From assembly GCF_000613865.1 (NCBI RefSeq), contig NZ_BAJU01000004.1, positions 62,001 through 126,000 on the forward strand: a stretch of 64,000 nucleotides of DNA, in the 5' to 3' direction. The notes under the pieces were generated by a model, which saw only the letters and a list, made by a program, of their open reading frames with translations, was not told the DNA's origin and searched no databases. Both the position numbers and the translations under genes were made by a program. Positions 783-62,294 of the stretch are shown piece after piece. Every line of letters begins with the position of its first letter. Position 1 is the stretch's first letter. The DNA is from Acetobacter okinawensis JCM 25146 (GTDB lineage Bacteria; Pseudomonadota; Alphaproteobacteria; Acetobacterales; Acetobacteraceae).

Positions 783-1310
783 TTACTGATCTGTTTTTGA
801 ATTTTTTCTGGCATGCAACTCCGGCCAAGAAGAAGTCGCAATGCCCATTGCCGGAAAATAAAGTTTGGCTAACTGCCGCTCATCCACCGGCATGGGAGTA
901 TTGCTGGAAGGACGAACACCATTCTGGCGCAACAGAAATGCAACAAGAGCCACTGTATCTTGTGAAGATAGAGTGCCGGGGGCCATGAGGGGCATGGCGC
1001 GGGATATGTATCCGGTCAGTTGGGCTAATGGCGCATTGGCCCAGCGAGCAGTAAAATAACTCCCCAGATCAGGCACATCATGGCCGCCCTCAAGGCTCGT
1101 ACCATGGCACATGGCGCATGTTCCGGCGTAAACTTGGGCACCGTGCGATACCTGCTCGGCAGAAAAGGTAAGAGCCGCTCCATTGCTGCTTCGGTTGCTT
1201 GTGGCTGCTCGCTGTTGCGTATCGGCCCGTGCTGCTCCAGCAAAGTGCAGGCAGGCCACTGCCCATGCCATGAGGAGCGAACGCTGGAAGAAAAGAGGGC
1301 GGGAAAACAT
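783..1310 (-). CDS. exported c-type cytochrome, single haem
   Basis: The protein has about 175 residues, with an N-terminal signal peptide (hydrophobic run ending ARADT) and one CAMCH haem-binding motif near residue 66. A methionine-rich stretch (RAMPLMAPG) about 40 residues later probably supplies the axial ligand. The ATG at 1310 was chosen because AAGGA sits about 8 bases upstream; longer upstream starts would overlap the preceding gene. It lies 10 bp downstream of a Tat-exported flavoprotein on the same strand, so it is a plausible electron acceptor for that enzyme or for another periplasmic dehydrogenase. That partnership is inferred from proximity only. Confidence 0.85.
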   Translation of the reverse strand: MFSRPLFFQRSLLMAWAVACLHFAGAARADTQQRAATSNRSSNGAALTFSAEQVSHGAQVYAGTCAMCHGTSLEGGHDVPDLGSYFTARWANAPLAQLTGYISRAMPLMAPGTLSSQDTVALVAFLLRQNGVRPSSNTPMPVDERQLAKLYFPAMGIATSSWPELHARKNSKTDQ

Positions 1311-1320
1311 GGTACCGTCC

Positions 1321-2612
1321 TTATCCATTACGTGGCTGAAAACGGGTAAAAAGATCACCAATAATGGTAACGGCTTTTTCCGCCTCCGCACGGTCGGCAT
1401 GTTCAAAACTGTTACCAACCCCATCCATGTCTCCAAGGCCATACATGTCGTATCCTTGGATCATCACCCCATCGGATTTGGAGATCATGGCGACCCCTTT
1501 GTATTCCAGAGCATAAGGGGCATCAGGCTGAGGGGGGAGCCAGCTTGTCTGGCCGCGAACGGGAATGAGGGATTTATCATTCCACCATTCCCGCGCAGCA
1601 TAGCCGGGGCAGTTGATAACCACACGCTCGGGCAGGTCCGCCAGATCGGCCGGGCTATGGAACTCGCGGATAACAATCCGCCCCCCGGCCTGATGGAACT
1701 CCGAGAGCAGCAGATGGGAGTAAGCACCAAAATTATAGATCATGAGCGGTGTGCGCCGCGCATAGGCTACGGGAAAGGGGTTGTCCGCCCCGGCCAGCAG
1801 TTCGGGTGCGGGCGTTACGTCTGCAATCAGGCCCGCATATGAGGCAAACTCAGCACTGCTCTGGGGGGCACCTGTGGTGGCAAAGGTGCCTTTGCCCGCA
1901 TCGGTCGGGGCAGGGGCGTGGTCGGCGGCATCGAGCGGCGTGTCAGACAGGGTAAAGTTATCACGAAAATCAATCGGGTTGCCGGGCAGGCCCAAATAGT
2001 CGCGATAGGTCTGCAGGGAGTAACGGGCCATCTGCTCCCATGTTCGGGCAAAATTTGGGCTGGCCTGCGCACTCAGGGCAATGCGGGAGTCCGGGGTCCA
2101 GCTCCCGTTGGCCCGCACAGAACGCGTATGGGGCAAAAGATCGCGGGTATAGATGGTCACATCCAGCCCCGCGCGCAGTGCGGTCAGGGCCGATGTCAGG
2201 CCGATAATACCACAGCCAATAACCGCAACTCTGCGCTCCAGTGTTGCCGCCGCATGCCCGACCGCCAGATATGCTGCCCCCCAGGAGAGTGACCAGCACT
2301 GCCGCCGTGGCCGTAATTATGCACAACGGTTTTGCCTGCCACATGTTCCACGTCCATGCGTGGCCCCGCCGGGCGGAAGGGGCGGAGGCAGACCTTGATG
2401 TCCATGATCTGGTCGGCATGGGCGCGAATAGGCACCAGCCGGGGGATGGTGCCATGCAAGGCCGTGCGGCCAAGGGCCGCGGCTGCCTGGGGGGCGGTTC
2501 CGTCTGGTGTGGCACTCCAGCCACGGCGTGCAACCCCCATCATCCCGGCAGCCAGAGAGGCCGCAAACAGGTCTCTACGTTTCAAGCTGTATGTTCCTGA
2601 CGTGTGTTTCAT
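1321..2612 (-). CDS. Tat-exported, circularly permuted D-amino-acid-oxidase-like flavoprotein (frameshifted)
   Basis: About 430 residues once one missing G near 2296 is restored. Residues 8-25 form a twin-arginine leader (KRRDLFAAS...). Next comes a segment that in ordinary D-amino-acid oxidases is at the C-terminus: LRPFRP, then VVHNYGHGGSGWSLSWG. Only after it comes the Rossmann FAD motif VAVIGCGIIG, normally residue 1 onwards in DAAO, followed by the DAAO-like body with VINCPGYAA. The order of parts is therefore rotated relative to DAAO. Expected chemistry is oxidative deamination of an amino acid or amine in the periplasm. Tat export fits a protein folded around FAD. The start is ATG 2612 rather than the GTG at 2615. 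It is followed closely by a cytochrome c gene. The substrate is not determinable. Confidence 0.8.
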
Positions 2613-2717
2613 CACGCGCGGTCCTGTCTGTCTGGGCGGCTGGGCACGCCAAATCTGGCGATAAACAAGGGGAAGAGCTGGTCTTCCCCTCAGGTAACAT
2701 ACTGGTAGATATGGTTT

Positions 2718-3455
2718 TTAGTTTTTGTAGTCGGGCTGCTCCCTGTCCAGTTTACGGCGCAGGGCTTTCCAGATCATCTGCCCCTGATCGGGGTCTGTTT
2801 CAAACTGATTTTTTGCACGCAGAAGTTTTTCTTCTGAGGGAACGTGCAATGGCACGCCGGTAGCTTGGGCCGCAATCTGAATTTTGCAGGCCTGCTCCAT
2901 ATAATATATGCGGTAAAAAGCCTGTGCCACGGTGCTGCCAACAGTCAGCAAACCATGGTTTTGCAAAATAATGGCGTTGTGGTTGCCAAGGTCACGTACA
3001 AGACGCTCACGCTCACTCAGGTTATCATCAGCCGCAATACCTTCATAGGCATGGAAGGCCACCGAACCATAAAATTCGATATTGATCTGATTCAAAGGGA
3101 GAATACCCTTATCCTGCGCTGCAACCACCATGCCGGGTACAGTGTGAGTGTGGATGACGCAGGCGGCATCTGGCCTGTTGGCGTGGATGGCCGAGTGAAT
3201 AACAAAGCCGGCAGGGTTAATGGCCCAGCTTGTTTCTTGTTGCGGAATACCATCGGCATCTACAATGACCAGAGAACTGGCTGTAATTTCTTCAAACAGA
3301 AGGCCGTAAGGGTTCACCAGATAGCGGTGCCCACCACCGGGTAGGCGCAGGGAGAGATGGGTGTACACCATATCGGTCATCCCAAAATGGGCAATAAGCC
3401 GGTATGCTGCGGCAAGGTCTTCGCGCAGTTCCTGTTCGGACTGTTGGATGGTCAT
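2718..3455 (-). CDS. class II aldolase/adducin family protein
   Basis: This is a complete 245-residue protein of the class II aldolase (fuculose-1-phosphate aldolase, RhaD, AraD) fold. Zinc-ligand histidines are visible in CVIHTHTVPG and in the later ILQNHGLLTVG; the conserved NPYG loop is near residue 49. Family members cleave or epimerise sugar phosphates, or decarboxylate or cleave hydroxy-keto acids. The start ATG has AAGGATC upstream. It is 33 bp downstream of the 2OG-oxygenase on the same strand, and so part of the leftward operon. The exact substrate is unknown; a role in cleaving a hydroxylated intermediate made by the oxygenase is inference. Confidence 0.85.
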   Translation of the reverse strand: MTIQQSEQELREDLAAAYRLIAHFGMTDMVYTHLSLRLPGGGHRYLVNPYGLLFEEITASSLVIVDADGIPQQETSWAINPAGFVIHSAIHANRPDAACVIHTHTVPGMVVAAQDKGILPLNQINIEFYGSVAFHAYEGIAADDNLSERERLVRDLGNHNAIILQNHGLLTVGSTVAQAFYRIYYMEQACKIQIAAQATGVPLHVPSEEKLLRAKNQFETDPDQGQMIWKALRRKLDREQPDYKN

Positions 3456-3488
3456 GGCTTTATGATCCTTGAATATAAAATAACTATC

Positions 3489-4535
3489 TCAGGCAGAGGC
3501 AACGCGCTTGAAATGGCCGAATGTGGCAGTTTTGCGTGCTCCTTCGGGGAGTTTGAGATCGCCTTTTTCAACCTTGCGCACAAGATACTGGTACGTTTGC
3601 AGGGCTTGCGACCACATATGCTCCCCAATTGTAATGGTTTCGTATGATGCCTCATCGCCTTTTGCAAAGGCGGGCAGGGGGCGGATCTGGGTATGGTAAT
3701 CGCAGGCATAAAAAAGTGGGAAAGAGTAGCGTTCCTCCGCCACCTTGCGAACCCTGTGCGCTGTTGCCACAAATTCCCCCGCGGTCATGACTTCGAGCAT
3801 ATCGCCGATATTCACGACAAACGCACCGGGAATAGGGGGGGCGTCAATCCACTCCCCATGGCCGTTCATAACTTCCAGCCCCGGTTTATCAGCCAGAAGG
3901 ATTGTAAAGCATTCGTAATCGGTATGGGCGCCAATTCCGGGTGCGTCCTGCACATCGGCATCATACGGATAGTGAATCATGCGGAGTTTGGACGGCGGGA
4001 AGTTGGCAACGGTATCAAAATATTTTTCGTCCAGCCCCAGAGCCAGGGCGAACCCACGAAAAAGGGTGCGCCCCAGATCAAACACTGCACGGTAGTAGGC
4101 TTCCGCCTTTGTCCGAAAACCGGGAATATCCGGCCAGTTGTTTGGTCCCAGCAAAGGCGTGCCTGCTTGCACCAGAGGATGATTGGCGGGCACCTCGTAG
4201 CCAATATCAAAGGCTTCCTTATGGTCCGGGCGACCGGCGGAATAGACTTCTTCTCCTTCGGGCACAAAGCCTTTGTGGGTGGCGGACGCGCCGATGTAGT
4301 ACTCCATTTTTCTGTCAAAAGGCTGGGCAAAAAAATCCCGCGCAGCCTTGCGAACACCTTCAATCAACTCCGCACTAACCTGATGGCCGGAAATATAGAG
4401 GAAACCGACATTGCGTGCGGCCTCACCCAACTGTTCAGCAACAGCCTGACGCTGAGCAATGTCGTCGCTGTACAGGCCCTTGATGTCAATGACCGGGATG
4501 CGGGTAAAGGTGTCAGTGGTTTTGGAAACAGACAT
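3489..4535 (-). CDS. 2-oxoglutarate/Fe(II)-dependent oxygenase, isopenicillin N synthase-like
   Basis: A 348-residue enzyme with the N-terminal non-haem dioxygenase domain (IPVIDIKGL, about residue 15) and the C-terminal 2OG-Fe(II) domain. Iron ligands appear as HTD ([10 protein letters not shown], about residue 205) and the distal His in ATAHRV; the RYSFPLFY region holds the R-x-S that binds the 2-oxoglutarate carboxylate. It should couple oxidation of 2-oxoglutarate to hydroxylation or desaturation of a small molecule. The start is ATG 4535 (SD-like AAGGAA), not the TTG just before it. It lies 12 bp from the TIM-barrel gene upstream. Some relatives act on guanidino amino acids, but this specificity is only a hypothesis here. 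Confidence 0.88.
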
Positions 4536-4547
4536 CAACCCAGTTCC

Positions 4548-5402
4548 TTATTTGCTGCCAGTATCTGACAGAACATGTTGAAAGTGCGCGCGCTCGGTCT
4601 GGCCTGTCCAGATATTGAGTGACCACAGGTCGGCTACGGGCATGTTGGTAAACGGCAGGGTGTGCAGATAACCATCCGGCCCACATTCGGGCGTCATGGT
4701 GGTAGTGGTGTATCCACGTGCACGCTGGCTCAGCCATATCTGCTGCCAGATACTCTGGTGAAAGCGCAGTGCCGCTGCATATTCCGGTGCGCCGGGATGG
4801 GGCGCCTGTGGCCCCTGATCATAGCCAACCCGTGCCTGAATATGGTGCACACGTTCCACAAAAGTGGACAGGTCATCTGCCGGGTCATTCAGCAGGCGCT
4901 CACAGCACACAACCCAGTGGCTTATGTCGGCCGTAAACAACACGTCTGGCAGTTGCGCAATAACGTCCAGTGTTACCCATGGTGTTGCCAGAATGCGGGA
5001 GCGATGTGTCTCAAAACAGCAGAGCAGGCCAGCCGAATGGCAGATCGTCTGTGCCTGAGCCATAAATTCCACCTGCTGACTGGCTGGCCAGCGGTCGTTC
5101 CCCCCAAGAATGGTTACAAACTGGGGTTCCATGAGCAGAACGCGATCCACCGCATCTCGCAGGTCATTCAAGTGGTCCTGCACTGTGGCACTCTGGGCGG
5201 GAATAACGCCGCCGCCCGTCATGGCGATGGCAATATAGGGCGCACTCGCGTCTTGCAAAATTGTGGCGCACGCACGGGCTTGATCAGCAGTGGCTGGAAT
5301 ACGGGCTTCCAGCCCTTTAAAGCCTGCCGCGCGGGCTTCCGCCAGTGGATAGTCCCACCGGCGGTTGTCTCCCCATAAAGTCCGGAAAAGTTCAAGCTGC
5401 AT
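4548..5402 (-). CDS. sugar phosphate isomerase/epimerase-like TIM-barrel protein
   Basis: This 284-residue protein belongs to the AP-endonuclease-2/xylose-isomerase-like TIM barrel family. Candidate metal ligands occur at the expected strand ends: FETHRS, ADISHW, VHHIQARVG and TPECGPDGY. Members are divalent-metal isomerases, epimerases or dehydratases. AGGA precedes the ATG by about 8 bases. It lies between the TonB receptor (28 bp upstream) and the 2OG-oxygenase (12 bp downstream), so it is almost certainly co-transcribed with both. No specific reaction can be assigned. Confidence 0.8.
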   Translation of the reverse strand: MQLELFRTLWGDNRRWDYPLAEARAAGFKGLEARIPATADQARACATILQDASAPYIAIAMTGGGVIPAQSATVQDHLNDLRDAVDRVLLMEPQFVTILGGNDRWPASQQVEFMAQAQTICHSAGLLCCFETHRSRILATPWVTLDVIAQLPDVLFTADISHWVVCCERLLNDPADDLSTFVERVHHIQARVGYDQGPQAPHPGAPEYAAALRFHQSIWQQIWLSQRARGYTTTTMTPECGPDGYLHTLPFTNMPVADLWSLNIWTGQTERAHFQHVLSDTGSK

Positions 5403-5430
5403 TTACGCGTTCCTGATACAGGCCAGTCGT

Positions 5431-7716
5431 TCAGAAGTTGTAGTGCAAGTCACAACCAATCCAGCGGGGTGTCTGGATGTACTGTACGCGGTTGCCGTCA
5501 TTCCCGGTAAAGGAATAGTTGCTGCGGGCATTGTTCTGCAGGTTGTCTACATAAACTGCAGCGTTCCACTTGCCGGTTTTGGGGCCAAATTCCATACGCA
5601 GACCAAGGGAGCTGATTTTCCCGTTCTGTGCATTGGGGTCACCCAGAGCGGCCCACATGTTATCCTTCCATGTAAAGCTAGCTTGCAGGGTGGTGCGATA
5701 GCGGCTGATGTCTATGCCGTAACGCGCCACAGCACTCCATGAAAAACGCGGAGAGAACGGGAGAGAAGAGTTCTTGGTAACAAGAGCGTTGCCCCCATCA
5801 TCAAGCACGGTGCTTTTGGATTGTGCATCCAAATATGCAAAGGATCCGTGCAGATCAAGATTGGGAATAACATCATGGAACGTGCCGGAAATTTCGCCCC
5901 CACGTGTGCGTGCACGCGGAATGGTACCCAATGTGAGTGAGTTCAGGCTATTCACCGGGTCAAAAACTTCAAAGAACAGTGTCTGCCGGTTATGGTATTC
6001 ATAATCAAACAAAGAGCCTTCAAGCTGCACTTTATTATGCAGCAAGGAGGATTTAATACCAATTTCGTAGGCGATCAGGTTTTCAGGTTTAACGTAATCA
6101 AGTGCCTGCGGCAGCAGTACAGGGGCCACAAAATAGGATCCTGCTTTGTAGCCATTGGAGATTGTGCCATACGCATAGGTGTTCGGCACAATCTCGTAAC
6201 GCAGCCCAACACGCCCGGTAAAGCGATGGTAACTATGGGTTGTGTTCAGGTAGCTAAGCTGGGAGCTACTGGCAGAACCAACAGGATAGCTTCTGGTGCC
6301 ACCATTAAAGCCTCGTTCATCATAGGACAGGCGGCCACCAGCAAGGAAATCGAGCTTTTTGGTAATGTTGGTGACTGTATTGATGTACAGCCCGGTGGAC
6401 ACGTTCTGCTGGGAGAAATGGTTTGTAAAGTTTGCATGGGGGTCTCTGGTAGCCCCACGGTAGCTGGTGTATTCCCCATCGATCTTGTCGTAAGATTCGT
6501 AAACACCTACGGTCAGATGAAAGATTTTTGCCAGATTCATACGCAGGTGCATGTCATGCGACTGCGCGATCGCCGTGTCATTCCAGCGATAGTCGGCAAC
6601 CTGCGTGTCAAGCCCGTCGTAGTTATCCAGATCATTGCGACGGTAAAAATCGATCCCTGTCGTGGAAGAAAAAGTGCCAAAGTCAAACGCCTTGGTGTAA
6701 TTAACAGACACGCCACCGCCATTCTCGTTCCGGTGTGGAGGAGAGTTCCCCACATTAACGGAGTTGGCGTTGGGATGAAGACCAGCCCCGCCGTCGCTGG
6801 GGGATGAAATATCCTGCGGGGAGGTCGAACGGCCTTTGTCGCGCGTGTAGTGGATGTTAAGCAACACGGAAGATGTGTCATCCACCACAAATTTGGTCAG
6901 GTTGCGCAACGCCAGCAGGTCCTGCGAGCCGTAGCGATCTCCTGTATTGATGTCTTTTTGCCAGCCATCACCTTTGACGTAGTTGAAGGCAAAGCGGTTG
7001 AAGATTTTATTTGTAATGGGCGTATTAATAGCAAAGCGGCCATGGTTGGTATTATAGCTGCTGTAACCCCACTCTGCATAACCACCAAACTTGTCGGACG
7101 GCTTTACCGACTGGATGTTGATGCTGCCACCCGTCGTGCTGCGCCCCATGTCAAAGCCCTGAGGGCCTTTTTCTGTGGAGACACTCTCAATATCAAGCAT
7201 TTGTCCGGTGTAGAAAACCGGGAACGGGGCCAGCAGCCCATCCAGATAAATGCCAATGCCCCCCATGTTGGTGCCCACGTAGTCATCCAGCCCAACGCCA
7301 CGGATTGAAAAAATAGGAGCAGAGCCGGACACAGCATTAGAAGCAGTAACACCGGGAGTGAAGGAGGCAATATCCTTTGGGCTCTCAAGATGAAGAGCGC
7401 GCAGCTCCTGCCCGCTGATCACGTTAACTGTGGCAGGTTGAGACAGGTAGCGATGCGTGTGGGTCTGACTGACCTCGACTTCTTCAGTAGAACCATTGCG
7501 TGGTGCTGTGTTTTTACGTCTGGAAGGGGCAGAGGCATGTTTGCCGTTTGCGCTTACGTGGCTTTTTGCAACAGGCTGGCTACTGGCAACAGGTGTTGCG
7601 GCGGTTGCCAGTGTTGAGGTCGATGCCAGAAGCAGGCAGGGCAAAGCTGGCAGGCTTACATATCTTGGCACCGAAGCCAGAAGGCGGAAGGACCGACGTA
7701 AAAAATATGATTTCAT
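5431..7716 (-). CDS. TonB-dependent outer-membrane receptor
   Basis: A 761-residue receptor with a signal peptide (about residues 1-40, ending ATAATP), a linker rich in Ala/Lys/Ser, a TonB-box-like EEVEVSQTHTH, and a plug domain (VNVISGQELRAL, FSIRGVGLDDY). The large beta-barrel ends in a C-terminal aromatic, DLHYNF, as usual for outer-membrane proteins. The plug resembles the FecA/catecholate-receptor-like group expanded in alphaproteobacteria. It imports a bulky or scarce substrate across the outer membrane using TonB energy. It stands at the head of the leftward catabolic genes and directly downstream of an amino-acid-type ABC transporter, so its substrate is probably that of the pathway. 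Confidence 0.92.
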   Translation of the reverse strand: MKSYFLRRSFRLLASVPRYVSLPALPCLLLASTSTLATAATPVASSQPVAKSHVSANGKHASAPSRRKNTAPRNGSTEEVEVSQTHTHRYLSQPATVNVISGQELRALHLESPKDIASFTPGVTASNAVSGSAPIFSIRGVGLDDYVGTNMGGIGIYLDGLLAPFPVFYTGQMLDIESVSTEKGPQGFDMGRSTTGGSINIQSVKPSDKFGGYAEWGYSSYNTNHGRFAINTPITNKIFNRFAFNYVKGDGWQKDINTGDRYGSQDLLALRNLTKFVVDDTSSVLLNIHYTRDKGRSTSPQDISSPSDGGAGLHPNANSVNVGNSPPHRNENGGGVSVNYTKAFDFGTFSSTTGIDFYRRNDLDNYDGLDTQVADYRWNDTAIAQSHDMHLRMNLAKIFHLTVGVYESYDKIDGEYTSYRGATRDPHANFTNHFSQQNVSTGLYINTVTNITKKLDFLAGGRLSYDERGFNGGTRSYPVGSASSSQLSYLNTTHSYHRFTGRVGLRYEIVPNTYAYGTISNGYKAGSYFVAPVLLPQALDYVKPENLIAYEIGIKSSLLHNKVQLEGSLFDYEYHNRQTLFFEVFDPVNSLNSLTLGTIPRARTRGGEISGTFHDVIPNLDLHGSFAYLDAQSKSTVLDDGGNALVTKNSSLPFSPRFSWSAVARYGIDISRYRTTLQASFTWKDNMWAALGDPNAQNGKISSLGLRMEFGPKTGKWNAAVYVDNLQNNARSNYSFTGNDGNRVQYIQTPRWIGCDLHYNF

Positions 7717-7871
7717 GCCCGTTTTCCTGTTTCATTCCCGTTGGAACCGGCTCCTGGGGCGCAAAGATGACCGGTCTTTTCGTTTTTATTTCATAACGAA
7801 ATATCCCCTACATTCGTTTGAAAATGACTAAATCATACTTTTGTTGATTGGCATGCGGGAGATGCAGGCGT
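7717..7871. promoter_or_regulatory. intergenic region ahead of the TonB receptor
   Basis: This 155-bp AT-rich gap separates the ABC ATPase stop from the receptor start on the same strand. It is the only sizeable gap in the leftward gene run and probably carries the receptor promoter. I see no clear terminator or known riboswitch in it. Confidence 0.4.
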
Positions 7872-8624
7872 TCAATACCGGAGCATCTGGTTAAGAAAAT
7901 TCTGAGCACGGTCTGTTTTGGGGGTGGTGAAAAAAGTTTCAGGGGGAGTGATTTCAACTATTTTCCCTTGATCCATAAAAATAATACGATCTGCAATACG
8001 GCGGCTAAAAGCCATTTCATGCGTTACGCAAACAGTTGTAATGCCTTGTTCGGCCAGTTCATCCATAATACTGACTACGCCAACAATAGCCTCCGGGTCT
8101 AACGCTGCTGTAGGCTCATCAAACAGCATGACCTGTGGCTGCATGCACAGCGCGCGCGCAATAGCCACACGTTGCTGCTGCCCACCAGAAAGCTGGATGG
8201 GGTATTTGTCTGCCTGATCCGGGATACCCACCTGCTCAAGGTAACGGCGTGCAAGGGCCGTTGCTTCGATCCTGCTCATGTGTTTGACCCGCATGGGAGC
8301 AAGAATACAGTTTTCCAGAACACTCAGATGCGGGAACAGGTTATAGTTCTGGAAAACCATGCCCACCATGCAGCGGAGCTGAATAGGGTCTGTTTTCTCG
8401 TTGATCAGCTTGCCATTGATGGTCAACGTACCAATGTCGTGTGGTTCAATGCGGTTGAGGGTGCGGATCAGGGTTGATTTCCCTGACCCGGATGGTCCAA
8501 GGACCACAATTTTCTCACCACGACTGACATCAAAATCCACACGGTCGAGTGCGACAAATTCACCAAACAGTTTGCTCATACCCCTCACGGAAATCATGGG
8601 GAGGTCTGTGGTTTCATGCTGCAT
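7872..8624 (-). CDS. polar amino acid ABC transporter ATP-binding protein
   Basis: A 250-residue GlnQ/HisP-type ATPase. The Walker A is GPSGSGKST (about residue 38), the Q-loop is [10 protein letters not shown], the signature [15 protein letters not shown], the Walker [15 protein letters not shown], and the H-loop VTHEM. The start at 8624 overlaps the 3' end of the permease gene by 11 bp, indicating translational coupling. It energises uptake through the fused binding protein-permease encoded immediately upstream. The PAAT family (glutamine, histidine, arginine and similar solutes) fits the sequence; the exact solute is unknown. Confidence 0.93.
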
Positions 8625-10192
8625 TGGAAACAACCTTTTTACGGTCTGACCAGGCAAAACGTCGTTCGACCCGTTTTTGCAGGAAAAGAAAGAAAAATAC
8701 CATAACCAGATAATAAACAAGCGCCGCCGCATAATACTCAGTAAAAGCAAAAGTGCGTGCAACCTGTATCTGTGTCACAGCCAGAAGTTCCTGCAGTGAA
8801 ATAACAGACGCAAGAGAGGTAATTTTTAGCAAATTGATAAATTCGTTTGATGGTGGGCGGGAGGGCAATGCGGAAAGCTTGAGGAAAAATAACACGCCAG
8901 TAAATATCGCGCCGGCTCAACCCCAGAGCACTGGCGCCAAGCTCCTGACCAGGGTCCACAGCACTGAGTGCGGCCCGGTTGATTTCCACCTGATAGGCTG
9001 ATTCATTCACGGACAATGCAAGAATGGTGGCCAAAAACGGCGTAAACCACTGTTCCCGAAAAATGGGAAAGAACTGCGGTACGGCGTTCCATATAAAAAG
9101 AAGCTGAAGCAGGGTTGGTGCCGCACGAAAAAGGGAGACATAACCTTCCAGCACAATTTTAAGCACCGATTTCTGCGGGCTGTTCAGCACAATGGCAATC
9201 GGCACCGAGATGGTGATGGCGATGATGTGTGAAATCAGGGCCACGCTCAGCGTAATGAGTGCACCATGAAGAAAAGCGGTGGAGGTAAGGGCGGAAAAAA
9301 AGGCATTCCAGTCAAACATGGAACTGGCACTCACATTTGCCGCACCATTTTTTGTGGACTGGTCTGTAACAGACCATTTGGTACGAAGTGCTGACAGCGT
9401 GCCGTCTGTTTCCAGCGCACTGATCGCTGACTGAAGCTGCGTCTGATCCGCCGCATTCGGGCGCAGATAAATGGCAAAATGGTGATAATCAGGAATATCC
9501 GGGGTAATCAAAACATGGAGCTTGTCCCCCAGCTGGCGCATACGAAAGAAGAGCTCAACGTCCTGACTGACAAAGGCAAACACACGACCGATCAGGACCT
9601 GCTGCACCACCTGTTCTTCAGTCGGGTATTGCTGAATAATCATGGGGGGCTTGCCAGCCGCTACAAGAGTATCGTTGATAAGCCCCAGTCTGGTAATATA
9701 ACTGGTGCCGGATTCAACGGCGATACTTTTGCCTGCAAGTTCATCCATGCTGGTAAGGGAAGGGGTGCCCTTACGGCCAACAACAACCAGTGCGGTATCC
9801 TGATAAGTGACCGCATCAAAGCTTTTTTCCCGCGCGGGTGTGCGGATAATACCACTCATGACCAACCCGCACCGCTGGGCGGAAAGACTGGGGAACAGGC
9901 CAGTAAAATCCATGGTAATGACGGACAGGCGAGCCTGCCAGCGGTTGGCCAGAGCCTGCGCTACGTCAATATCGAACCCTTCCGGATGGCTGACATCCTG
10001 CCCTTTAACAAAGGTCATCGGCGGGAGTGTCGGGTTTGTACAAATGGTCAGTACGCCATTTTGCACGAACGAAGGAACCGGTTCGGCCTGAGCCAGTCCG
10101 TGCAGCCCAGCAGTTGCTACAAGGATGCCAGCAAGTGCCGCAGCAAGGCGAAAGTGCCGCGTGAGCGGCAAGAAGGAGAAAAAGCTGATCAT
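8614..10192 (-). CDS. fused amino acid binding protein-permease of an ABC transporter (frameshifted)
   Basis: About 525 residues after removing one extra base in the triplet T run at 8846-8848; with that change PPTIN joins EFINLLKITSL. Residues 1-36 are a signal peptide. About 45-265 are a solute-binding protein family 3 domain (GFDIDVAQALANRW, MSGIIRTPAREK). From about 300 a MetI-type permease follows, with the EAA-loop region GASALGLSRRDIYWRVI. Binding protein and permease in one chain is a known minor architecture of amino acid importers. The start ATG 10192 overlaps the regulator stop as TGATG. Specificity is unknown. Confidence 0.88.
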
Positions 10193-11144
10193 CAATAGGA
10201 AGCTTCCAGAAGGGAACGGAACGTTTCGACCATCAGACTGGTTTCGGGCGAGGTACGTGTCAGTAGGTGACAGCAGGTAATCAGGCGCAGGTTGTTGAAC
10301 GCAATCCGGCGCAGGAGCCTTGGGCCACAAGGGGGGCCGCAAAAACTTCGGGCAGAAAACCAATATAACTGCCAGAAAGAATAAGCAGTGCGCGGGCATC
10401 CAGTTTGTCGGCTTTGGCGCGGTAGGTAAAATGATGGCGTATGCTTTCCCACATATCGGATGTGGCCACTTCTCCAACACTCACCATGCTTTGGCTGGCC
10501 AGAACGTCCAGAGTGATTTCTTCTTCCGGGACATCGAACAGGGGATGCCTCGCGCCGCAGAAAAGATAGGATGCCTCAGCGACAAGTGGACGACAGCCCT
10601 GAGGAGCACGCCCCTGCGCGTAAAGGGCAATACCCGCCGTAGCCTGACCGTTCATCACTGCCACTTCCACTTCCTTGGTGGAAGCGGAATGCAGGTGCAT
10701 GAACACACCGGGGTGGCTTTGCGTAAAGGTGTGAATGGCTTTGACTAACGGCGTTTCACCATGGGTCTGTATATTGTCGGGCACGTACAGGGTAAATGTG
10801 CCGCTCAGCACGCCACTTGCCTGATTGATCTGCTGGCGGAAGTGCTCAAGATTTATAAAAAGCGAGCGCGTTGCCTCCAGCACTTCCCGTCCTTCATCAG
10901 TCAGCGCAAAGCCACTACGCCCACGCAGGCAGATTGTCAGGCCAAGGCGGGTTTCCAGTGCCGAGATGTCAAGGCTGATGGAGGATTTGCTTTTGCCTAG
11001 CGTAATTTCCGCAGCACTGAAGCCCCCCTGTTCGGCCACTGTGTGAAAGACGCGGAGCAGCCGCAGGTCAATCTCGGAAACATGCCCCTGAAAACCACGT
11101 GCTCTTTTTCTTGGGCGGGGTGTTTTGTGGCTGCTTCCCGTCAT
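10192..11144 (-). CDS. LysR-family transcriptional regulator of the cluster (frameshifted near 3' end)
   Basis: About 317 residues. An N-terminal winged helix-turn-helix (LRLLRVFHTVAEQGGFSAAE) is followed by a substrate-binding-like effector domain. One G is missing in the AAGG run near 10319; adding it joins APLVAQG to LLRRIAFNNL and extends the protein to 10192. The start ATG 11144 has AGGAG about 10 bases upstream. The gene sits exactly at the divergence point between the leftward transport/oxidation genes and the rightward amidinohydrolase operon, the classical position for a LysR activator controlling both. Its stop overlaps the transporter start. Confidence 0.88.
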
Positions 11145-11453
11145 GGTCTGAATGCTCCTGTAGAGTGGGGCGTCAAGGAGGGCAGGTTGCCCCAACCTCC
11201 TGTTTTTACGGGCAAACCGTTATTGTTCTTTTATCAAAATAATTATGGCGTGGAAAATATATGATGTGAAGGGCGAACTGTCTGCCCCATATAAACATGA
11301 GAGAGCACAAGAGCCGTAGAATGACGGTTTTCTGCGTTATTTGCACATAATTGCGAAAAAACTAAAGTAAACTCATGTCTGTTCGTATTGGGGTCGTAAC
11401 AAGCCTCGGATAGCTTGCAGGAGCAACTTAGATACCTTGAGGATTTTCAAGAC
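11145..11453. promoter_or_regulatory. divergent control region between LysR regulator and amidinohydrolase operon
   Basis: This 309-bp region has no convincing gene. It holds AT-rich stretches around 11230-11265 and 11325-11375. One imperfect dyad, TTTGC-N8-GCGAAA near 11338-11356, has the look of a LysR-type site. No canonical riboswitch (including guanidine classes) was recognised. Promoters for both directions are expected here. Confidence 0.45.
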
Positions 11454-12325
11454 ATGGCAGCGAACAGATGGTTTATTGATAGTGAAACCGGTGTGCTGAC
11501 AGATGTCCTTCTTTGCCCGCCAGATTATTACGAATGGATACCAAGCAATGACATCGCCATCCAGACAATGGCGAATGGTGGCAGCATAGACAGGACAATC
11601 CTGCACAGCCAGTTTGACGAGCTGGTATCAACCTTGAAGGGGGCTGATGTTTCCTGCCATTTTCTTGCACCGCACAAGGATATGCCTTACGAGGTTTATA
11701 CCCGTGACAGTTCGCAAACAACGCCTTTTGGCACGGTTGTTACCAGTCTGTCACGCTCGGAGCGGGTGGGGGAAGAAAAGGAAATCCGCACTTTTTACGC
11801 TCCGGACGAAATCTGGCGCACCTGCACCGCAGGGCGTATAGAAGGGGGGGATATTCATATTATCCGCCCCGGTCTGTTGGCTGTGGGGGTAAGCGGAGGA
11901 CGCACGGACACAAAAGGCGCGGCCGAGTTTATCAGCTGGTTTGAAGAGGCTGGGTGGACCTGCCGGATGATCCATTTTCCCGAGCATTTCCTGCATCTGG
12001 ACGTTATTTTCTGCATGGTGGCAGAAATCTGGCTATCGCTGCGGTGGACGTGCTGGATGAGGCTGATCTGGAGTGGTTCCGGGCGCAGGGCATTCGCATT
12101 CTGCCCGTAACCTACCGCGAAGCCATGCGTGATATGGGCTGCAACGTGCTGGCTCTGGGGCGGGACCGTGTGGTAAGCCCGCGCCATTCAACGCGGATCA
12201 ACGCAATGCTGCGGGCCGAAGGACTGAGTGTTCTGGACCCTGAGCTTAACCAGTTCTCCCGCGGCGGTGGTAGTATTCATTGCATGACCATGCCCCTGCG
12301 CCGTCAGTCTCTGCAGACCGCGTAA
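11454..12325 (+). CDS. amidinotransferase-superfamily hydrolase (DDAH/arginine-deiminase-like), frameshifted
   Basis: About 290 residues after adding one A to the AAA run at 12025-12027. Family signatures are an N-terminal DVLLCPPDYYEW, the RDSSQTTPFG segment, GRIEGGDIHI, the catalytic-histidine region FPEHFLHLDVIF, and the C-terminal catalytic cysteine in GGGSIHCMTMPL. Such enzymes attack a guanidino carbon with cysteine and release ammonia or an amine, leaving a ureido (carbamoyl) product. Start ATG 11454 is preferred (GAGG upstream) over a TTG further up. It is the first gene of a rightward operon with a 2-hydroxyacid dehydrogenase and a carbamoylase. Whether the substrate is arginine, methylarginine or another guanidino acid is unknown. 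Confidence 0.87.
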
Positions 12326-12351
12326 GACAGGTCTTATAAGGAGCAAGGTGG

Positions 12352-13295
12352 ATGCCAGCACGTATTGTTATCAGCGCAGACGGTAAAAAAGCGTTTGAAA
12401 GTTGGCGTCTGGCTTTTGCTTCGGTCGCTCCACAGGTCAGTGTATGCTCATGGTATGATCCGGCCTATACCGCCGGAGAAGATGATTATGCACTGGTCTG
12501 GAGCCCCCGGCCAGACCATATGGAACGCCTTGCGTGCATGAAGGGAATTGTGTGCACGGGGGCAGGGGTTGATCATCTTCTGGCACATGCAGACTTCCCA
12601 CGCCATGTGCCACTGGTACGGATGGGGGGAGAGCAGACCGCCCGCCTCATGGCCGATTATGTGCTGTGGGCCGTCATCGGTCTGCTGCGAGATGCGCGAA
12701 CATGGGCAATGCAACAGCAGCAGGGCCTGTGGCGCAACAATGTATGCAGTCGCACGTCCAATACGACCCGAGTAGGCATTATGGGGCTTGGGCACCTTGG
12801 AGCATATGTGGCTCAGGCGCTGGCCCACGTCGGTTTTTGCGTATCTGGCTGGAAACGAACGCCCGCGGAACTGGATGGCGTAACTGTATGGAGCGGCGTG
12901 GAGGCACTGCCTGATTTTTTGGGCGAACTGGACGTTCTGATTAACCTGCTGCCCGCAACCCCCGCAACAGACGGACTGATCGACACGTTCTGCTCAGCCA
13001 TCTGCCTAAAGGTGCAGGTTTTGTAAATGTCGGCCGGGGGCGCCACGTGGTGCAGAGTGATCTGCTCCGTGCATTGGATGATGGCACATTGTGTGGTGCG
13101 GTGCTGGATGTGGTAACCCCCGAGCCTTTGCCAGATGATAGTGCACTTTGGCACCACCCGCGTCTGACCATAACGCCACATGTGGCCTCCGAAGCGTCGC
13201 GCGAGGTGCAGGCCCGTTATGTGGCCGATGTCGTGGCCTCTCTGGAGCGGGGCGAAAAGCCTGCACTACTGTGTGACGTAACGCGTGGCTACTGA
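12352..13295 (+). CDS. D-2-hydroxyacid dehydrogenase, GhrA/glyoxylate reductase-like (frameshifted)
   Basis: About 314 residues once one missing base near 12984 is restored, joining ATDGLID to HVLLSHLPKGAGFVNVGRG. The NAD(P) Rossmann motif is VGIMGLGHLGAYVAQAL (about residue 140). The active-site arginine is in NVGRGRHVV, the glutamate in DVVTPEPLP and the histidine in ITPHVAS. It reduces a 2-oxo acid to the D-2-hydroxy acid, or the reverse. It starts 27 bp after the amidinohydrolase and ends 35 bp before the carbamoylase, so it is part of the same operon, possibly handling the oxo acid left after deamination. Confidence 0.88.
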
Positions 13296-13329
13296 AGACA
13301 AAACAGCTTGAACGGGAAATGGACAGGAT

Positions 13330-14574
13330 ATGAGCCAGTACGCCAACCTGACAATCAATGGGCAGGACCTGTGGCAGGATCTTGTGACAACCGCAGCTTT
13401 TGGCGGCACAGAAAAAGGTGGTATATGCCGCCTTGCCCTGTCACAAGAAGACAGGCAGGTTCGTGCTTGGTTTGAGCAGACATGCAAGGCACTAGGCTGC
13501 ACGGTAACCTATGATTCCATGGGCAACCAGTTTGCCCGCCGTGCTGGCACCCACAATGATCTCCCCCCTATTATGATGGGAAGCCATCTGGACACACAGG
13601 TAACTGGTGGCCGTTTTGATGGTATTCTGGGTGTTCTGGGTGGTATTGCCGTACTTCGGGCACTGCATGCAGCCAACATAAACACGGATCATCCACTTGA
13701 AGTCGTAAACTGGACAAACGAAGAAGGTGCCCGGTTTGCCCCTCCCATGCTGGCCTCTGGCGTTTTTGGTGGTGCTTTTACCGAAGAGTTTGCTGGCAGT
13801 CGGGCCGATACGGACGGCGTGACCTTGCGGCATGAGCTTGAACAAGGTGGTTTTGTTGGCCAAGAGCAATGTGGCCAGCACCCTGCGGCGGCGTATTTTG
13901 AACTGCACATCGAACAGGGGCCGGTTCTGGAGGCCGAAGAACGCACCATAGGCATTGTAACGGGCGTGCAGGGAATGCGCTGGTACGAGGTTATTGTGCG
14001 TGGTCGCTCAGCCCATGCCGGCACAACGCCTATGCCCATGCGCAAGGATGCACTCCTAGCTGCGGCCCGCATGATTGAACAGGTCAACGCTGTAGCACTT
14101 GCCCATGCGCCAGAAGGGTTAAGCACAATTGGTATTATTACCGCCCTTCCAGCCAGTAGCAACGTGGTGCCAAGGGAAGTGCGCTTTACTGTGGACCTGC
14201 GCAATCCGTCTGAATCGGTTTTGCAGGTTATGGAAGAAGATTTTTTACAGCGTATGCAGAGCTGTGCTGAAGCAAACGATGTACAGGTTGAAATTGTACC
14301 AACTTGGAATTCTCCCGCCGTACATTTTGACCCGAGATGTATTGATAGCGTTAAAGCAAGTGCAGGAGATTTTGGCTATACCATGCGCGAGATTGTTTCC
14401 GGTGCCGGGCATGACGCCGTATATGTCTCCCGGGTTGTCCCAACAGCTATGATCTTTGTGCCATGTCTGCATGGCATTAGCCATAATGAGGCAGAAAGTG
14501 CGACGCCAGAGGATGTGACAGCAGGCAGCAATGTGCTTTTACATGCAGTTCTAAAGGCTGATAAAATATTCTAG
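13330..14574 (+). CDS. M20-family N-carbamoyl amino acid/allantoate amidohydrolase
   Basis: A complete 414-residue Zn-dependent hydantoinase/carbamoylase-family amidase. Metal ligands are visible in GSHLDTQ, TNEEGARF, HIEQGP and the distal SGAGHDA; the dimerisation-domain substrate segment RGRSAHAGTTPM is present. It hydrolyses N-carbamoyl groups (N-carbamoyl amino acids, allantoate, ureidoglycolate or beta-ureidopropionate) to an amine, CO2 and NH3. After an amidinohydrolase, which makes a ureido product, this is the logical next step in one operon. A strong terminator follows immediately. Confidence 0.92.
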   Translation: MSQYANLTINGQDLWQDLVTTAAFGGTEKGGICRLALSQEDRQVRAWFEQTCKALGCTVTYDSMGNQFARRAGTHNDLPPIMMGSHLDTQVTGGRFDGILGVLGGIAVLRALHAANINTDHPLEVVNWTNEEGARFAPPMLASGVFGGAFTEEFAGSRADTDGVTLRHELEQGGFVGQEQCGQHPAAAYFELHIEQGPVLEAEERTIGIVTGVQGMRWYEVIVRGRSAHAGTTPMPMRKDALLAAARMIEQVNAVALAHAPEGLSTIGIITALPASSNVVPREVRFTVDLRNPSESVLQVMEEDFLQRMQSCAEANDVQVEIVPTWNSPAVHFDPRCIDSVKASAGDFGYTMREIVSGAGHDAVYVSRVVPTAMIFVPCLHGISHNEAESATPEDVTAGSNVLLHAVLKADKIF

Positions 14575-14583
14575 AAAAATTTT

Positions 14584-14655
14584 AAAACAGAAAATACTGT
14601 TTTTCGGGCCAATATTTTCCCGGACCCAAAAAGGGGGAGCGCACTCCCCCTTTTT
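14584..14655. terminator. tandem terminator hairpins, bidirectional
   Basis: The first hairpin is AAAACAG/CTGTTTT with a six-base loop (14584-14603), ending in T's. The second is a 12-bp perfect stem, AAAAAGGGGGAG/CTCCCCCTTTTT, with loop CGCA (14628-14655). Both lie between two convergent genes; the second stem ends with A- and T-tracts on both sides, so it can stop transcription from either direction. It overlaps the last bases of the aminotransferase stop codon at 14654-14656. Confidence 0.9.
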
Positions 14656-15835
14656 ATTTGAGCAATGGACCAACGCTCTCCATGGCTTTGCAGAAAAGCT
14701 GCACGTCATGGGCCGACCCAACGGTGATTCTGGAGCATGTTGGCCATATAGCCCAGCTACGCCCAATAATAACATTGTTTTGCGCAAGCTTTGCAACAAT
14801 TGGCTCTGGTGCCTTACGCCAATCAGCCATAAGCATATTGGCATCACTGGGAATGGTGCTGACACCATAATGGCTTAAACATGCCTGCATAACCTTACGG
14901 TTCTGCCTTGTTTCAAAACGGCGTTTTTCAATCTCTGTCCTGTCTTTCAGGCTATCAGTGCCAATGGCAACTGCCGGAACAGACAGCATGGTTGTCTGGT
15001 AAATACCATCATACCGCATCATTCTGTCATGCAGACTGGGGTGCGCAATACTGAACCCCAGACGAAGCCCCGCCATGGCAAATAATTTGGAGAATGTGCG
15101 CAATACAATCAGATTACGGCATGAACCAAGAAGGGAAACCGCAGACGGAGCATTGCTGAAATGTAAATACGCCTCATCCGCCACCAAAACGGCATTTTGG
15201 GGAATATGGCGTGATAGCCATGCAATATCTTCCAGTGGGGTAAGAGTGCCCGTCGGGTTGTTAGGGCTGCATATATAATACATTCCTGCATGTGGGTTAG
15301 CCTTGAGCATGGCCCGCACATCTGCCTTATAACCGTTGTCTGCCCGCAAAGGAACTTTGGCTAAGGGAATTTGCAGCCATTCCGCAACGCCCCAAACCGT
15401 TTCGTAAGTAGGGTCACAGGTCACAAGCCCCTGTGTTGGCGAGCAAAAAGAAATGACCGTTCTACACAGTGGGTCGCTGGAGCCGGGCCACGGGGTTATC
15501 AACTCTGGTGAAATATGGTCGTAGGCCGCGGCTGTTTCAACCAAAGTCTGCCGCTCTTGACCTGTCAGGTAGCGATTGCCATTCAGCAATGCCTTTTGCC
15601 CGGCTGGCAGAGCAGACGGGAAGGGACCAGTCCAGAACTCGTTACTGTTGAGCAAAATGGAACCTGGTGGGTAAATGCCGCCAACAGGCAGGGTATCGGC
15701 CCGACTTTTGTGCCATGGCATGCCTGCCATAAGGGAACCAACACCCAGCATAAGAGAAATGCGGCCGATTTGCCGGCGGGAAAAACCGCGCTCGTAAAGC
15801 TCTTGCTGAGCCTGTGCTGGCAAGGGTGCAACCAT
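14654..15835 (-). CDS. Tat-exported PLP aminotransferase, histidinol-phosphate aminotransferase-like
   Basis: A complete 393-residue class I/II aminotransferase. Residues 18-46 form a twin-arginine leader (FSRRQIGRISLMLG...), unusual for this cytosolic family. PLP motifs are intact: SPNNPTG (Asn), VADEAYLHF (Asp/Tyr), TFSKLFAMAGLRLG (Schiff-base Lys, phosphate-binding Arg). The C-terminal substrate Arg is probably in SRITVG. Because PLP is inserted in the cytoplasm, Tat is the expected route for an exported PLP enzyme. It converges on the amidinohydrolase operon and shares its terminator. Its role, transamination of a periplasmic amino acid, is inferred. Confidence 0.85.
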   Translation of the reverse strand: MVAPLPAQAQQELYERGFSRRQIGRISLMLGVGSLMAGMPWHKSRADTLPVGGIYPPGSILLNSNEFWTGPFPSALPAGQKALLNGNRYLTGQERQTLVETAAAYDHISPELITPWPGSSDPLCRTVISFCSPTQGLVTCDPTYETVWGVAEWLQIPLAKVPLRADNGYKADVRAMLKANPHAGMYYICSPNNPTGTLTPLEDIAWLSRHIPQNAVLVADEAYLHFSNAPSAVSLLGSCRNLIVLRTFSKLFAMAGLRLGFSIAHPSLHDRMMRYDGIYQTTMLSVPAVAIGTDSLKDRTEIEKRRFETRQNRKVMQACLSHYGVSTIPSDANMLMADWRKAPEPIVAKLAQNNVIIGRSWAIWPTCSRITVGSAHDVQLFCKAMESVGPLLK

Positions 15836-18512: not shown

Positions 18513-19319
18513 TCAGGCCGAAGTGTAGTCGAGTGTTACCGTGGCTTCGCTGGTCAGCACCCGAAAAACAAAACTCTCCTGCAAATACAATTCAACGGTC
18601 TCGGCTGTATGGCTCAGATAACCGATTGAAAAGTCCTGACCAATATCAAGAGTAAAGTCTCCCCCGCGCATGGATACGACAAATGCGCCTTCCAGAGCGG
18701 GTGCCCAGATAATTTTGCCGTCAATCATGCTTTCAATGTGCTTTTTGACGGGGTACCCATCATCGTCCCCACTGCTGACGGCCAGATGAGCCTGCGCACC
18801 CAGCACGACTGAATAAGGACCATTAACCCCGGCCAGACGCAGAGCGTTCAGTGCTTCGGCAATGGCATGGGGGTAATCTTTCGCCATAGCAGGAAGTTTG
18901 AGGTGAGGGTTGGAGGTGCCTTTCCGCATACCGCAAATACCCGCTGCCTCAAAACCATTGAAAATGGCGTGGTCCTCGGCAAAGGCAATTTTCTGGGCAG
19001 CGTCTTTGACTGTTTGCCAGTCTGAATCAAGTGCCCCACGCTCCACCGCATCAATCTCATCGCGCGAGAGCGTGAAGGGGACGCGTAGCTCGACCAGAGG
19101 TAGCACTTCACGCTGTGTGGCCAATACCCCATTGTCGGACACATCTACTTTTTTGCCTCGCCCGGTTCCAACACCGGCAAACGCCGTACCCTTGGGCTCA
19201 GGTGTATCCACCACACGGCGGCCCGCAAGGTGGCGGCGAATGGTCCGGCTGGCCTCCTCCTCAATCTGAACCCATGCTTCGGCGGAAATGGGAGCAAGGT
19301 GTTTGTGCAGATTGTTCAT
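18513..19319 (-). CDS. encapsulin shell protein (family 1)
   Basis: A 268-residue encapsulin (linocin M18/HK97-like fold), matching the usual length of about 265. Recognisable parts are the N-terminal NNLHKHLAPISAEAW, RRVVDTPEPKG, the E-loop with REVLPLVELRVPFTL, and the P-domain AIFNGFEAAGICGM. It self-assembles into a proteinaceous nanocompartment. Its start lies one base after the stop of the DyP peroxidase gene, so the two are translationally coupled. The peroxidase carries a cargo-loading tail, making this a complete cargo-shell pair. Confidence 0.96.
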   Translation of the reverse strand: MNNLHKHLAPISAEAWVQIEEEASRTIRRHLAGRRVVDTPEPKGTAFAGVGTGRGKKVDVSDNGVLATQREVLPLVELRVPFTLSRDEIDAVERGALDSDWQTVKDAAQKIAFAEDHAIFNGFEAAGICGMRKGTSNPHLKLPAMAKDYPHAIAEALNALRLAGVNGPYSVVLGAQAHLAVSSGDDDGYPVKKHIESMIDGKIIWAPALEGAFVVSMRGGDFTLDIGQDFSIGYLSHTAETVELYLQESFVFRVLTSEATVTLDYTSA

Positions 19320-19320
19320 A

Positions 19321-61401: not shown

Positions 61402-62294
61402 ATGCGCTTTCTTTCCGCAAACGAGACACGACAGGTTCTCCCTTTCCAGCCGCTGATTGCAACACTCAGGACGGCCATTGAGGAATACCGGGACAAGATC
61501 ATCATTTGTCCGGAACGTCTTGTGGTGCCATCTACCGACCACACCGGGACAGTGCTGTCGATGGTAGCCTGCGGGCCGGACATTATCACCCACAAGCTGT
61601 TGAGCATTTTCCCCGGGAATACAGCTTTACCGACGCTTCAGGGACAGGTGACGTGCCTCGATGCTAGTGACGGACGTTTTCTATTCGCTATGGACGGCAT
61701 TACCGCAACCGAACGACGTGCTGCCGCGATTTCAATGCTCGGCCTGTCCTGTTTTTGTCCAACGCACCTTGAGCATGTTCTACTTATTGGGACTGGCGCA
61801 CAGGCACGTGTCCATCTTGAAGCGCTGAATGAGCTTTATCCGGGCCTTTCCGTTACGATACGAGGCAGGAACGCAGAGCGTGTCCAGTCACTCATTGACA
61901 ACCGTTATCACGCCCTCTGCCTCAGAGCCGAGAGTAATAATTCGGCAGACCACTATGACGCTGTCATTTCTGTCACCAGCAGCCGAGGAATCTTGTTTAA
62001 TCAAGAGGCTTCGCCGAACACACTGGTCATCGGTGTCGGTGCATACCGCCCGGATATGATCGAGATAGGCCCCAAGATTGTCCTGAATAGTCTCTGCGTC
62101 GTCGATGATCCCATTGGCGCTCCCCATGAGGCGGGGGATATTCTGCAGGCCGGAAAAAAATGGTCAGACGTCTGCGCTCTTGCCGATTTTTTCTGAAAAG
62201 ACCCGCTCAAAACCAGCCAGTCTTTTTCAAAAGTGTTGGCTGTGCCGCATGGGATCTGGCCGCCTGCCGGCTTGCTATGCAATCACTGCCATAA
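61402..62294 (+). CDS. ornithine cyclodeaminase/mu-crystallin family protein (two frameshifts)
   Basis: About 296 residues if two extra T's are removed, in the T6 run near 62175 and the T5 run near 62222; this yields DFSEKTRSKPASLFKSVGCAAWDLAACRLA, the expected C-terminus. The NAD-binding motif is VLLIGTGAQARVHLEAL; substrate-binding Lys/Arg features are in THKLLSIFPGN and GITATERRAAAISMLG. Family enzymes deaminate ornithine to proline or reduce cyclic imines (P2C/Pyr2C reductase). Being in a decayed island, it may be a true pseudogene. Confidence 0.78.

Follow-up and report, generated by a model that had tools for sequence, protein, structure and literature searches.

The window analysed here is a stretch of 64,000 nucleotides from Acetobacter okinawensis JCM 25146 (contig NZ_BAJU01000004.1, positions 62,001 to 126,000). 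It contains, between positions 783 and 15,835, a divergent gene cluster with a LysR regulator which a preliminary description had assigned to the import and degradation of a single compound. The window belongs to contig C124, from a genome of 3.16 Mb in 127 contigs (92% complete), and the nearest named relative is A. okinawensis DsW_060, whose 2-oxoglutarate (2OG) oxygenase is 96% identical. Gene limits were set by mapping the genes of intact relatives onto the window sequence, and families were assigned by Pfam and NCBIfam profile searches of the window's proteins. The core of the cluster is made up as follows:

2718..3455, minus strand: class II aldolase/adducin-type metalloenzyme of the PRK07044 subfamily (PF00596, 4.2e-48; NF005451 above its cut-off)
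3489..4538, minus strand: Fe(II)/2OG oxygenase of an MgdH-like family (DIOX_N and 2OG-FeII_Oxy; relatives in guanidine-carboxylase operons; tree)
4548..5402, minus strand: TIM-barrel protein (xylose-isomerase-like; AP_endonuc_2, PF01261), partner of the oxygenase
5431..7716, minus strand: TonB-dependent outer-membrane receptor (PF00593, PF07715)
7872..8762, minus strand: amino-acid-type ATP-binding cassette (ABC) ATPase (PF00005; unbroken against the A. okinawensis relative)
8617..10192, minus strand: fusion of substrate-binding protein (SBP) and permease of the ABC importer (PF00497 and PF00528; frame-broken near 8849)
10195..11144, minus strand: LysR regulator, first gene of the leftward run (PF00126 and PF03466; start at 11144; frame-broken near 10320)
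11145..11453, no strand: divergent intergenic region with putative LysR-controlled promoters (blocks conserved in a six-sequence alignment)
11454..12325, plus strand: arginine-deiminase/DDAH-like deiminase (PF02274; E130, H181, C277 and D85 conserved; frame-broken near 12028)
12352..13295, plus strand: GhrA-like D-2-hydroxyacid dehydrogenase (PF02826; frame-broken near 12985)
13330..14574, plus strand: M20 carbamoylase (ureido-acid hydrolase; TIGR01879 and NF006769 above cut-off)

The gene list given earlier was borne out by the domain searches, with two corrections to the layout. The two arms are divergent as described, but LysR does not divide them: its gene is the first of the leftward run, abutting that of the SBP-permease, and the true divide lies at 11145-11453. 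This region of 309 bases has several blocks kept across six Acetobacter sequences including that of the window, and two sigma-70-like matches on the minus strand. The importer had been called fused, which applies to SBP and permease, but the ATPase is a separate gene. For the GhrA-like protein NF012013 was the best NCBIfam match, but under its cut-off. The oxygenase and the TIM-barrel protein carry only generic names.

Conservation was followed in stretches of about 20 kb around the oxygenase gene from 20 of the 21 other genomes of the genus with an oxygenase of at least 74% identity (in the one left out, a 5-kb contig). All ten core genes were present in 11 of the 20 stretches; one was without the carbamoylase only, five were without deiminase and carbamoylase, and three were more reduced. 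A lack of conserved synteny had been named as possible grounds against the cluster; conserved synteny was found in the Acetobacter stretches, and it gives good support to the import and degradation of a single compound under the control of a single LysR regulator. The conservation does not extend to three genes at the edges, which had been counted as members:

783..1442, minus strand: cytochrome c, adjacent, outside the conserved unit (PF13442)
1321..2588, minus strand: Tat-type FAD (flavin adenine dinucleotide) oxidoreductase of the DAO family, adjacent, outside the conserved unit (PF01266 on the L056 copy; frame-broken near 2295)
14654..15835, minus strand: convergent HisC-like (class I/II) aminotransferase, adjacent in close relatives only (PF00155)

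The aminotransferase adjoins the core in 5 of the 20 stretches, and flavoprotein and cytochrome c adjoin it in 1 of 20 (the L032 contig stops before that place). The flavoprotein, whose DAO-family domain was detected on the intact A. lovaniensis copy (L056), occurs in this one further species and in 2 of the 84 wider loci described below. Because the edge genes are adjacent in so few stretches, the conserved unit is the ten genes from aldolase to carbamoylase (window 2718-14574), and the three edge genes are lineage-specific.

Five genes of the interval are split between frames, namely those of the flavoprotein, SBP-permease, LysR, deiminase and GhrA-like enzyme, which raised the question of decay in this strain, with the breaks as real pseudogene mutations. 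In a gene-by-gene comparison with the A. okinawensis relative, small indels split 12 of 41 open reading frames. The cluster showed no enrichment of such splits (4 of 10 compared to 8 of 31 elsewhere, Fisher p = 0.44; the flavoprotein is outside the 4 of 10, as the A. okinawensis contig does not reach it, and A. lovaniensis served for its comparison). A split was likewise found in rpoB of this genome (G000:C116:46628-50748). Intact copies exist of four of the broken genes in the A. okinawensis relative and of the flavoprotein gene in A. lovaniensis. As the breaks are spread over the window and affect rpoB as well, decay was rejected as highly improbable. The five breaks are probably sequence errors, and the intact copies of the relatives were therefore used for the analysis. 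Given indels across the window and in rpoB, reading frames called from this assembly should be treated with caution.

Outside the genus, the company of these genes was examined in 84 loci, 80 of which were the best of 145 relatives found in a collection of species genomes and 4 of which came from a plasmid collection. The oxygenase served as query for 83 of them and the deiminase for 1, and most extend 10 kb to either side, so that genes farther off are missed. TIM-barrel protein and oxygenase were together in 82 of the 84 loci, an SBP was present in 81 and the aldolase in 49. This company is far beyond chance, and the block was found in Acetobacter, Komagataeibacter, Gluconacetobacter, Pseudomonas, Klebsiella and Burkholderiaceae. 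Near the core, a GbuA-type ureohydrolase was present in 33 loci and a deiminase in 25; none had both and 26 had neither.

The core genes of TIM-barrel protein, oxygenase and importer are common to the deiminase loci and the Pseudomonas gbuA locus, but their surroundings differ. In the GbuA loci the core lies beside the guanidinobutyrase in Pseudomonas and Klebsiella, mostly with a LysR gene of its own. The ureohydrolase of Pseudomonas gives a full-length match to guanidinobutyrase 3nio (641.6 bits), and a thiamine pyrophosphate (TPP) enzyme nearby passed the score threshold for the 5-guanidino-2-oxopentanoate decarboxylase subfamily. TPP enzymes of this type occur in 30 of the 33 GbuA loci and in none of the 25 deiminase loci. 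The deiminase loci, all from Acetobacteraceae, have no GbuA and no TPP decarboxylase but the deiminase, with the carbamoylase seen beside it in at least 15 of 25. They mostly have a TonB receptor (23 of 25, compared to none of the 33 GbuA loci), and the Acetobacter LysR is of another type (33-37% to that of Pseudomonas).

The family of the oxygenase was searched in 398 genomes across the phylum with an Acinetobacter relative as query, and matches at E of at most 1e-40 were found in 26 of them. Nineteen loci of such relatives were compared (15 stretches with the best matches and 4 plasmid loci). A guanidine carboxylase was present in eight (L142, L179, L180, L182, L183, L184, L188, L191) and an MgdL-like neighbour in six (L141, L143, L177, L179, L180, L182), three of them with the carboxylase. 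The TIM-barrel protein was present in six, both partners in none and neither in seven. The MgdL-like protein, which had no Pfam match, would be MgdL judging by the place of its gene. A riboswitch scan took in the window, L137, L143, L179 and L180. In the MgdL-type loci L179 and L180, guanidine-I aptamers were found together with a guanidine-II aptamer immediately upstream of the carboxylase gene. Aptamers of both classes were also found in L137, on a plasmid of Paraburkholderia sprentiae, where the TIM-barrel and oxygenase pair precedes a urea/guanidine-carboxylase operon. The scan gave no guanidine aptamer in L143.

The aptamer arrangement of L179 and L180, and of L137, is that reported for mgdH of Vreelandella boliviensis (PMC12508155). 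The mgdH-mgdL operon and the Acetobacter cluster have in common an oxygenase of apparently the same 2OG family with a dedicated partner gene, in an operon for guanidine compounds. They differ in that the Acetobacter partner is a TIM-barrel protein and not MgdL-like, and that deiminase and carbamoylase take the place of guanidine carboxylase. The window also adds an amino-acid-type importer, a TonB receptor, an aldolase and a GhrA-like enzyme. The likeness to MgdH and MgdL was drawn from neighbours and relatives and set against the published descriptions.

In an alignment of the oxygenases, Y81, H88, E96, E97, the motif HTDYECF (205-211) and Y281 were near-invariant, with E96, E97 and the motif so in both branches. 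Likewise, H205, D207, H261 and R270 were near-invariant among the 100 rows counted; we take this HxD...H and Arg to be the metal and 2OG residues of Fe(II)/2OG oxygenases. K89, K184 and Y99 mark the TIM-barrel branch, and the P. sprentiae oxygenase has R, Q and F in their place (in these counts the L137 row was included in both groups and L178, the two L189 rows and L144 in neither). K89 and K184 may hold the carboxylate of the substrate acid. In the oxygenase tree, the window protein falls in an Acetobacteraceae clade (100/97) which is sister to the GbuA-linked Pseudomonas clade (91/90). Basal in this branch is the P. sprentiae protein (97/82), and the rows with MgdL-like protein or guanidine carboxylase lie outside the branch. 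The TIM-barrel branch is thus separate and supported, with 97/82 including L137 and 100/100 excluding it, in a tree that was rooted at the midpoint only and has several long branches.

Among PDB chains, the oxygenase matched best to 9ovh, which bears the name ethylene/succinate-forming enzyme (229.4 bits; residues 11-294). Ethylene-forming enzyme (EFE) belongs to the same DIOX_N family of 2OG oxygenases, but 5v2t and 5lsq, presumably the much-studied EFE chains, matched like other chains at only about 77 bits and in pieces. In 9ovh and 6jyv, G-L stands in place of E209-C210 in the HTDYECF motif. For the TIM-barrel protein, for which hydroxypyruvate isomerase was considered, no solved relative was found by sequence at E 0.001. 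An alignment of 22 sequences showed E131, D159, H162, H186, H187 and E239 to be invariant, and E, D, H and E among these presumably form the usual metal site. On a Shinella plasmid, a relative of the oxygenase (42%) lies between a LysR gene and a run of amidase, BMP-type ABC and amidohydrolase genes (L144:7932-16392); no guanidine carboxylase was found in this stretch.

The deiminase shares the catalytic Cys, His and Glu/Asp motifs of the arginine deiminase/DDAH/ArgZ superfamily. It keeps E130, H181 and C277, which we take to be the catalytic residues, and C277 was found in all 29 rows with a letter at this position. Its Asp85, present in 31 of 31 rows, aligns with ArgZ Asn71, presumably the key position of ArgZ-type dihydrolases. 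An arginine dihydrolase was therefore rejected. All seven NCBIfam matches were far under their cut-offs, the best with 70.3 bits against 414 and the arcA equivalog with 64.8 against 489.1. A deiminase, in contrast to a dihydrolase, would leave a ureido acid and would need a carbamoylase, which fits the neighbouring M20 enzyme. The latter has the family and length of N-carbamoyl-beta-alanine and N-carbamoyl-L-amino-acid hydrolases and scored 436.4 bits with TIGR01879 (hydantoinase/carbamoylase family amidase, cut-off 204). It reaches names at subfamily level only, and its substrate is a prediction.

Deiminase relatives and Zn-dependent hydrolases recur together in other operons (L139, L146, L192, L196). 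Of 22 plasmid records with a deiminase relative, 12 were checked (H31, H33, H34, H40-H43, H45, H47, H49, H50, H52), their gene tables being incomplete. A Zn-dependent hydrolase was annotated in the same run in H34, H40, H49 and H50, and an M20-named fragment in H31. Rhizobial plasmid operons (L139:4627-13449, L140:4606-12194, L192:1-8434) combine an amidase, an amino-acid ABC importer and a deiminase relative (about 44%) with a class III aminotransferase and a 3-keto-5-aminohexanoate-cleavage-type enzyme, and those of L139 and L192 also have the Zn-dependent hydrolase. They perhaps encode another guanidino-acid pathway. Two Rhodobacterales plasmids (L146:6935-15832, L196:3935-10585) have LysR, a deiminase relative, a Zn-dependent hydrolase and a betaine-type ABC importer, and L146 also holds two tandem arginase/agmatinase-type genes.

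Within Acetobacter, 49 genomes were surveyed for the deiminase (at least 75% identity) and the GbuA-like ureohydrolase (at least 43%). The former was found in 21 and the latter in 11, never both. Urease was above cut-off in 18 genomes, including all 11 with the ureohydrolase and 4 of the 21 with the deiminase. The oxygenase was present (at least 74% identity) in 22 of 37 genomes of the genus searched. Of these, 15 had the deiminase and 7 ureohydrolase and urease; at these thresholds none had both or neither. Left uncounted were ureohydrolase matches of 29-37% in G003, G010, G025 and G072 and deiminase matches in G032 (30%) and G030 (36%, short). On the oxygenase tree the exchange corresponds to three changes on supported branches, all of them opposed. 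The window's own genome gave no ureohydrolase or urease match at its completeness of 92%. Acetobacter genomes without the deiminase also have a tandem pair of two different ureohydrolases besides a third (G024:C13:46738-48575, G027:C4:53375-55218, G032:C1:2250061-2251910 and others), near urease genes in some.

The compound had been described as amino acid-like. The SBP keeps the Arg which we take to bind the ligand's carboxylate in LAO-type SBPs, and this part of the description holds. The Asp that presumably binds the alpha-ammonium group is absent at the aligned position in the Acetobacter and Pseudomonas SBPs, so that an alpha-amino acid is not claimed, and an omega-guanidino acid appears as likely as an amino acid. 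Guanidino compounds had been among the earlier guesses and are supported by the GbuA and guanidine-carboxylase neighbours and by the 2OG family, lines that are independent of each other. The best fit would be a guanidino acid substituted on a guanidine nitrogen.

We thus propose, at a probability of roughly 55%, that the LysR-controlled operon pair serves to import and degrade an N-substituted guanidino acid, which would be derived from 4-guanidinobutyrate, arginine or a similar compound. The acid would enter the cell through the TonB receptor and the ABC importer. The 2OG oxygenase, judging by its family, would hydroxylate the carbon on the guanidine nitrogen and so remove the substituent, and the TIM-barrel partner, from its position in the place of MgdL, may split or rearrange the hydroxylated product. 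According to families and motifs, the deiminase would convert the unsubstituted guanidino acid to a ureido acid and ammonia, and the M20 carbamoylase would convert the ureido acid to an amino acid, carbon dioxide and ammonia. No urea would be made, and the two enzymes would replace the guanidinobutyrase of Pseudomonas and the ureohydrolase and urease of other Acetobacter. The released carbon fragment might be disposed of by the aldolase and the GhrA-like dehydrogenase, which is a guess and the least certain step; the roles of these two and of the TIM-barrel protein in the pathway are those that we infer. The cluster would then be a variant of guanidine-compound catabolism. In the literature searched, as judged by titles and abstract openings, no description of this gene set was found.

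Several observations weigh against this proposal. Substrate, activity and expression are predictions from the genes, and a lyase function of the TIM-barrel protein, resting on position, is guesswork. The kinship of the oxygenase with MgdH is judged from relatives and gene neighbours, its best PDB match is not a guanidine demethylase by name, and the window has no guanidine riboswitch at gathering threshold. A guanidine remover is missing within the stretch in the 26 loci with neither GbuA nor deiminase. The carbamoylase was seen at only 15 of 25 deiminase loci (some of which end beside the deiminase), and L044 and L049 are without it despite longer stretches; at 7 of the 12 plasmid loci checked, no such hydrolase is listed in the run. 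At identities under the thresholds, G010 of the 15 deiminase genomes with the oxygenase has a 31% ureohydrolase match and G032 of the 7 ureohydrolase genomes a 30% deiminase match. Urease occurs in 1 of the 15 genomes with deiminase and oxygenase and in 4 of 21 deiminase genomes overall. The three changes on the tree are suggestive, but their number does not suffice to reach significance (sign test, p = 0.25).

Three other explanations were weighed. Free guanidine could be released if the oxygenase hydroxylates, in arginine, homoarginine or 4-guanidinobutyrate, the chain carbon beside the guanidino nitrogen, like EFE or plant homoarginine-6-hydroxylases; deiminase and carbamoylase would then form a parallel route. 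The P. sprentiae pair, immediately followed by a guanidine-carboxylase operon that has guanidine aptamers, is in line with this, as are the ethylene/succinate-forming enzyme chains among the PDB relatives, with 9ovh as the best. However, a guanidine carboxylase was found in 1 of the 84 loci and GbuA or deiminase in 58 instead, and it is the P. sprentiae oxygenase that is without the K89, K184 and Y99 of the rest of the branch; release of guanidine is therefore considered unlikely. A special case of the proposed pathway would be the catabolism of N-methylated arginine, by demethylation to arginine and formaldehyde and subsequent arginine breakdown. The amino-acid-type importer and the frequent 5-guanidino-2-oxopentanoate-decarboxylase-type enzyme of the GbuA loci speak for it. 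MgdH N-demethylates guanidines (PMC12508155), but it did not turn over N-methylarginine (NMMA) or dimethylarginine (ADMA), which counts against the proposed pathway in general as well. None of the ten core genes is of a formaldehyde-handling type, and aldolase and GhrA-like enzyme would be left unexplained, which makes methylarginine a distinctly improbable substrate.

It is very unlikely that the cluster is an ordinary ureido (purine-type) or arginine operon, with the carbamoylase serving as allantoate amidohydrolase and a hydroxy- or sugar-like acid as the substrate of the oxygenase. The best NCBIfam name of the carbamoylase is indeed allantoate amidohydrolase, and TIM-barrel protein, aldolase and GhrA-like enzyme resemble enzymes of hydroxy acids. 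Of the allantoate-named models, however, only NF006769 and NF006771, both at subfamily level, were passed, and equivalogs were missed (e.g. AllC with 257.7 against a cut-off of 597.75). N-carbamoyl-beta-alanine hydrolase (403 bits) and N-carbamoyl-amino-acid hydrolase (369 bits) outscored allantoate amidohydrolase (180 bits) among the PDB relatives. Together with guanidine-related neighbours in several families, this M20 comparison made a route through allantoin or allantoate appear unlikely.

With the proposed degradation of an N-substituted guanidino acid, a block whose oxygenase and TIM-barrel protein have only generic names acquires a function that can be tested, and the methylguanidine-oxygenase family, which was described recently, is connected with guanidino acids. 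If the proposal is true, the deiminase lineages recover nitrogen without urea, a case of non-homologous replacement of ureohydrolase and urease versus deiminase and carbamoylase. More tentatively, and on balance doubtful, the pathway may be widespread, with the TIM-barrel protein as a new N-(hydroxyalkyl)guanidine lyase in the place of MgdL and with the two enzyme pairs exchanged about three times in Acetobacter, in either direction.

Two further features of the window were recorded. An encapsulin shell gene and, directly following it, a gene for a DyP-type peroxidase, a usual encapsulin cargo, lie beside the cluster on the minus strand (18513-20442). About 46 kb from the cluster, an ornithine-cyclodeaminase-like gene is located at 61402-62196 on the plus strand.

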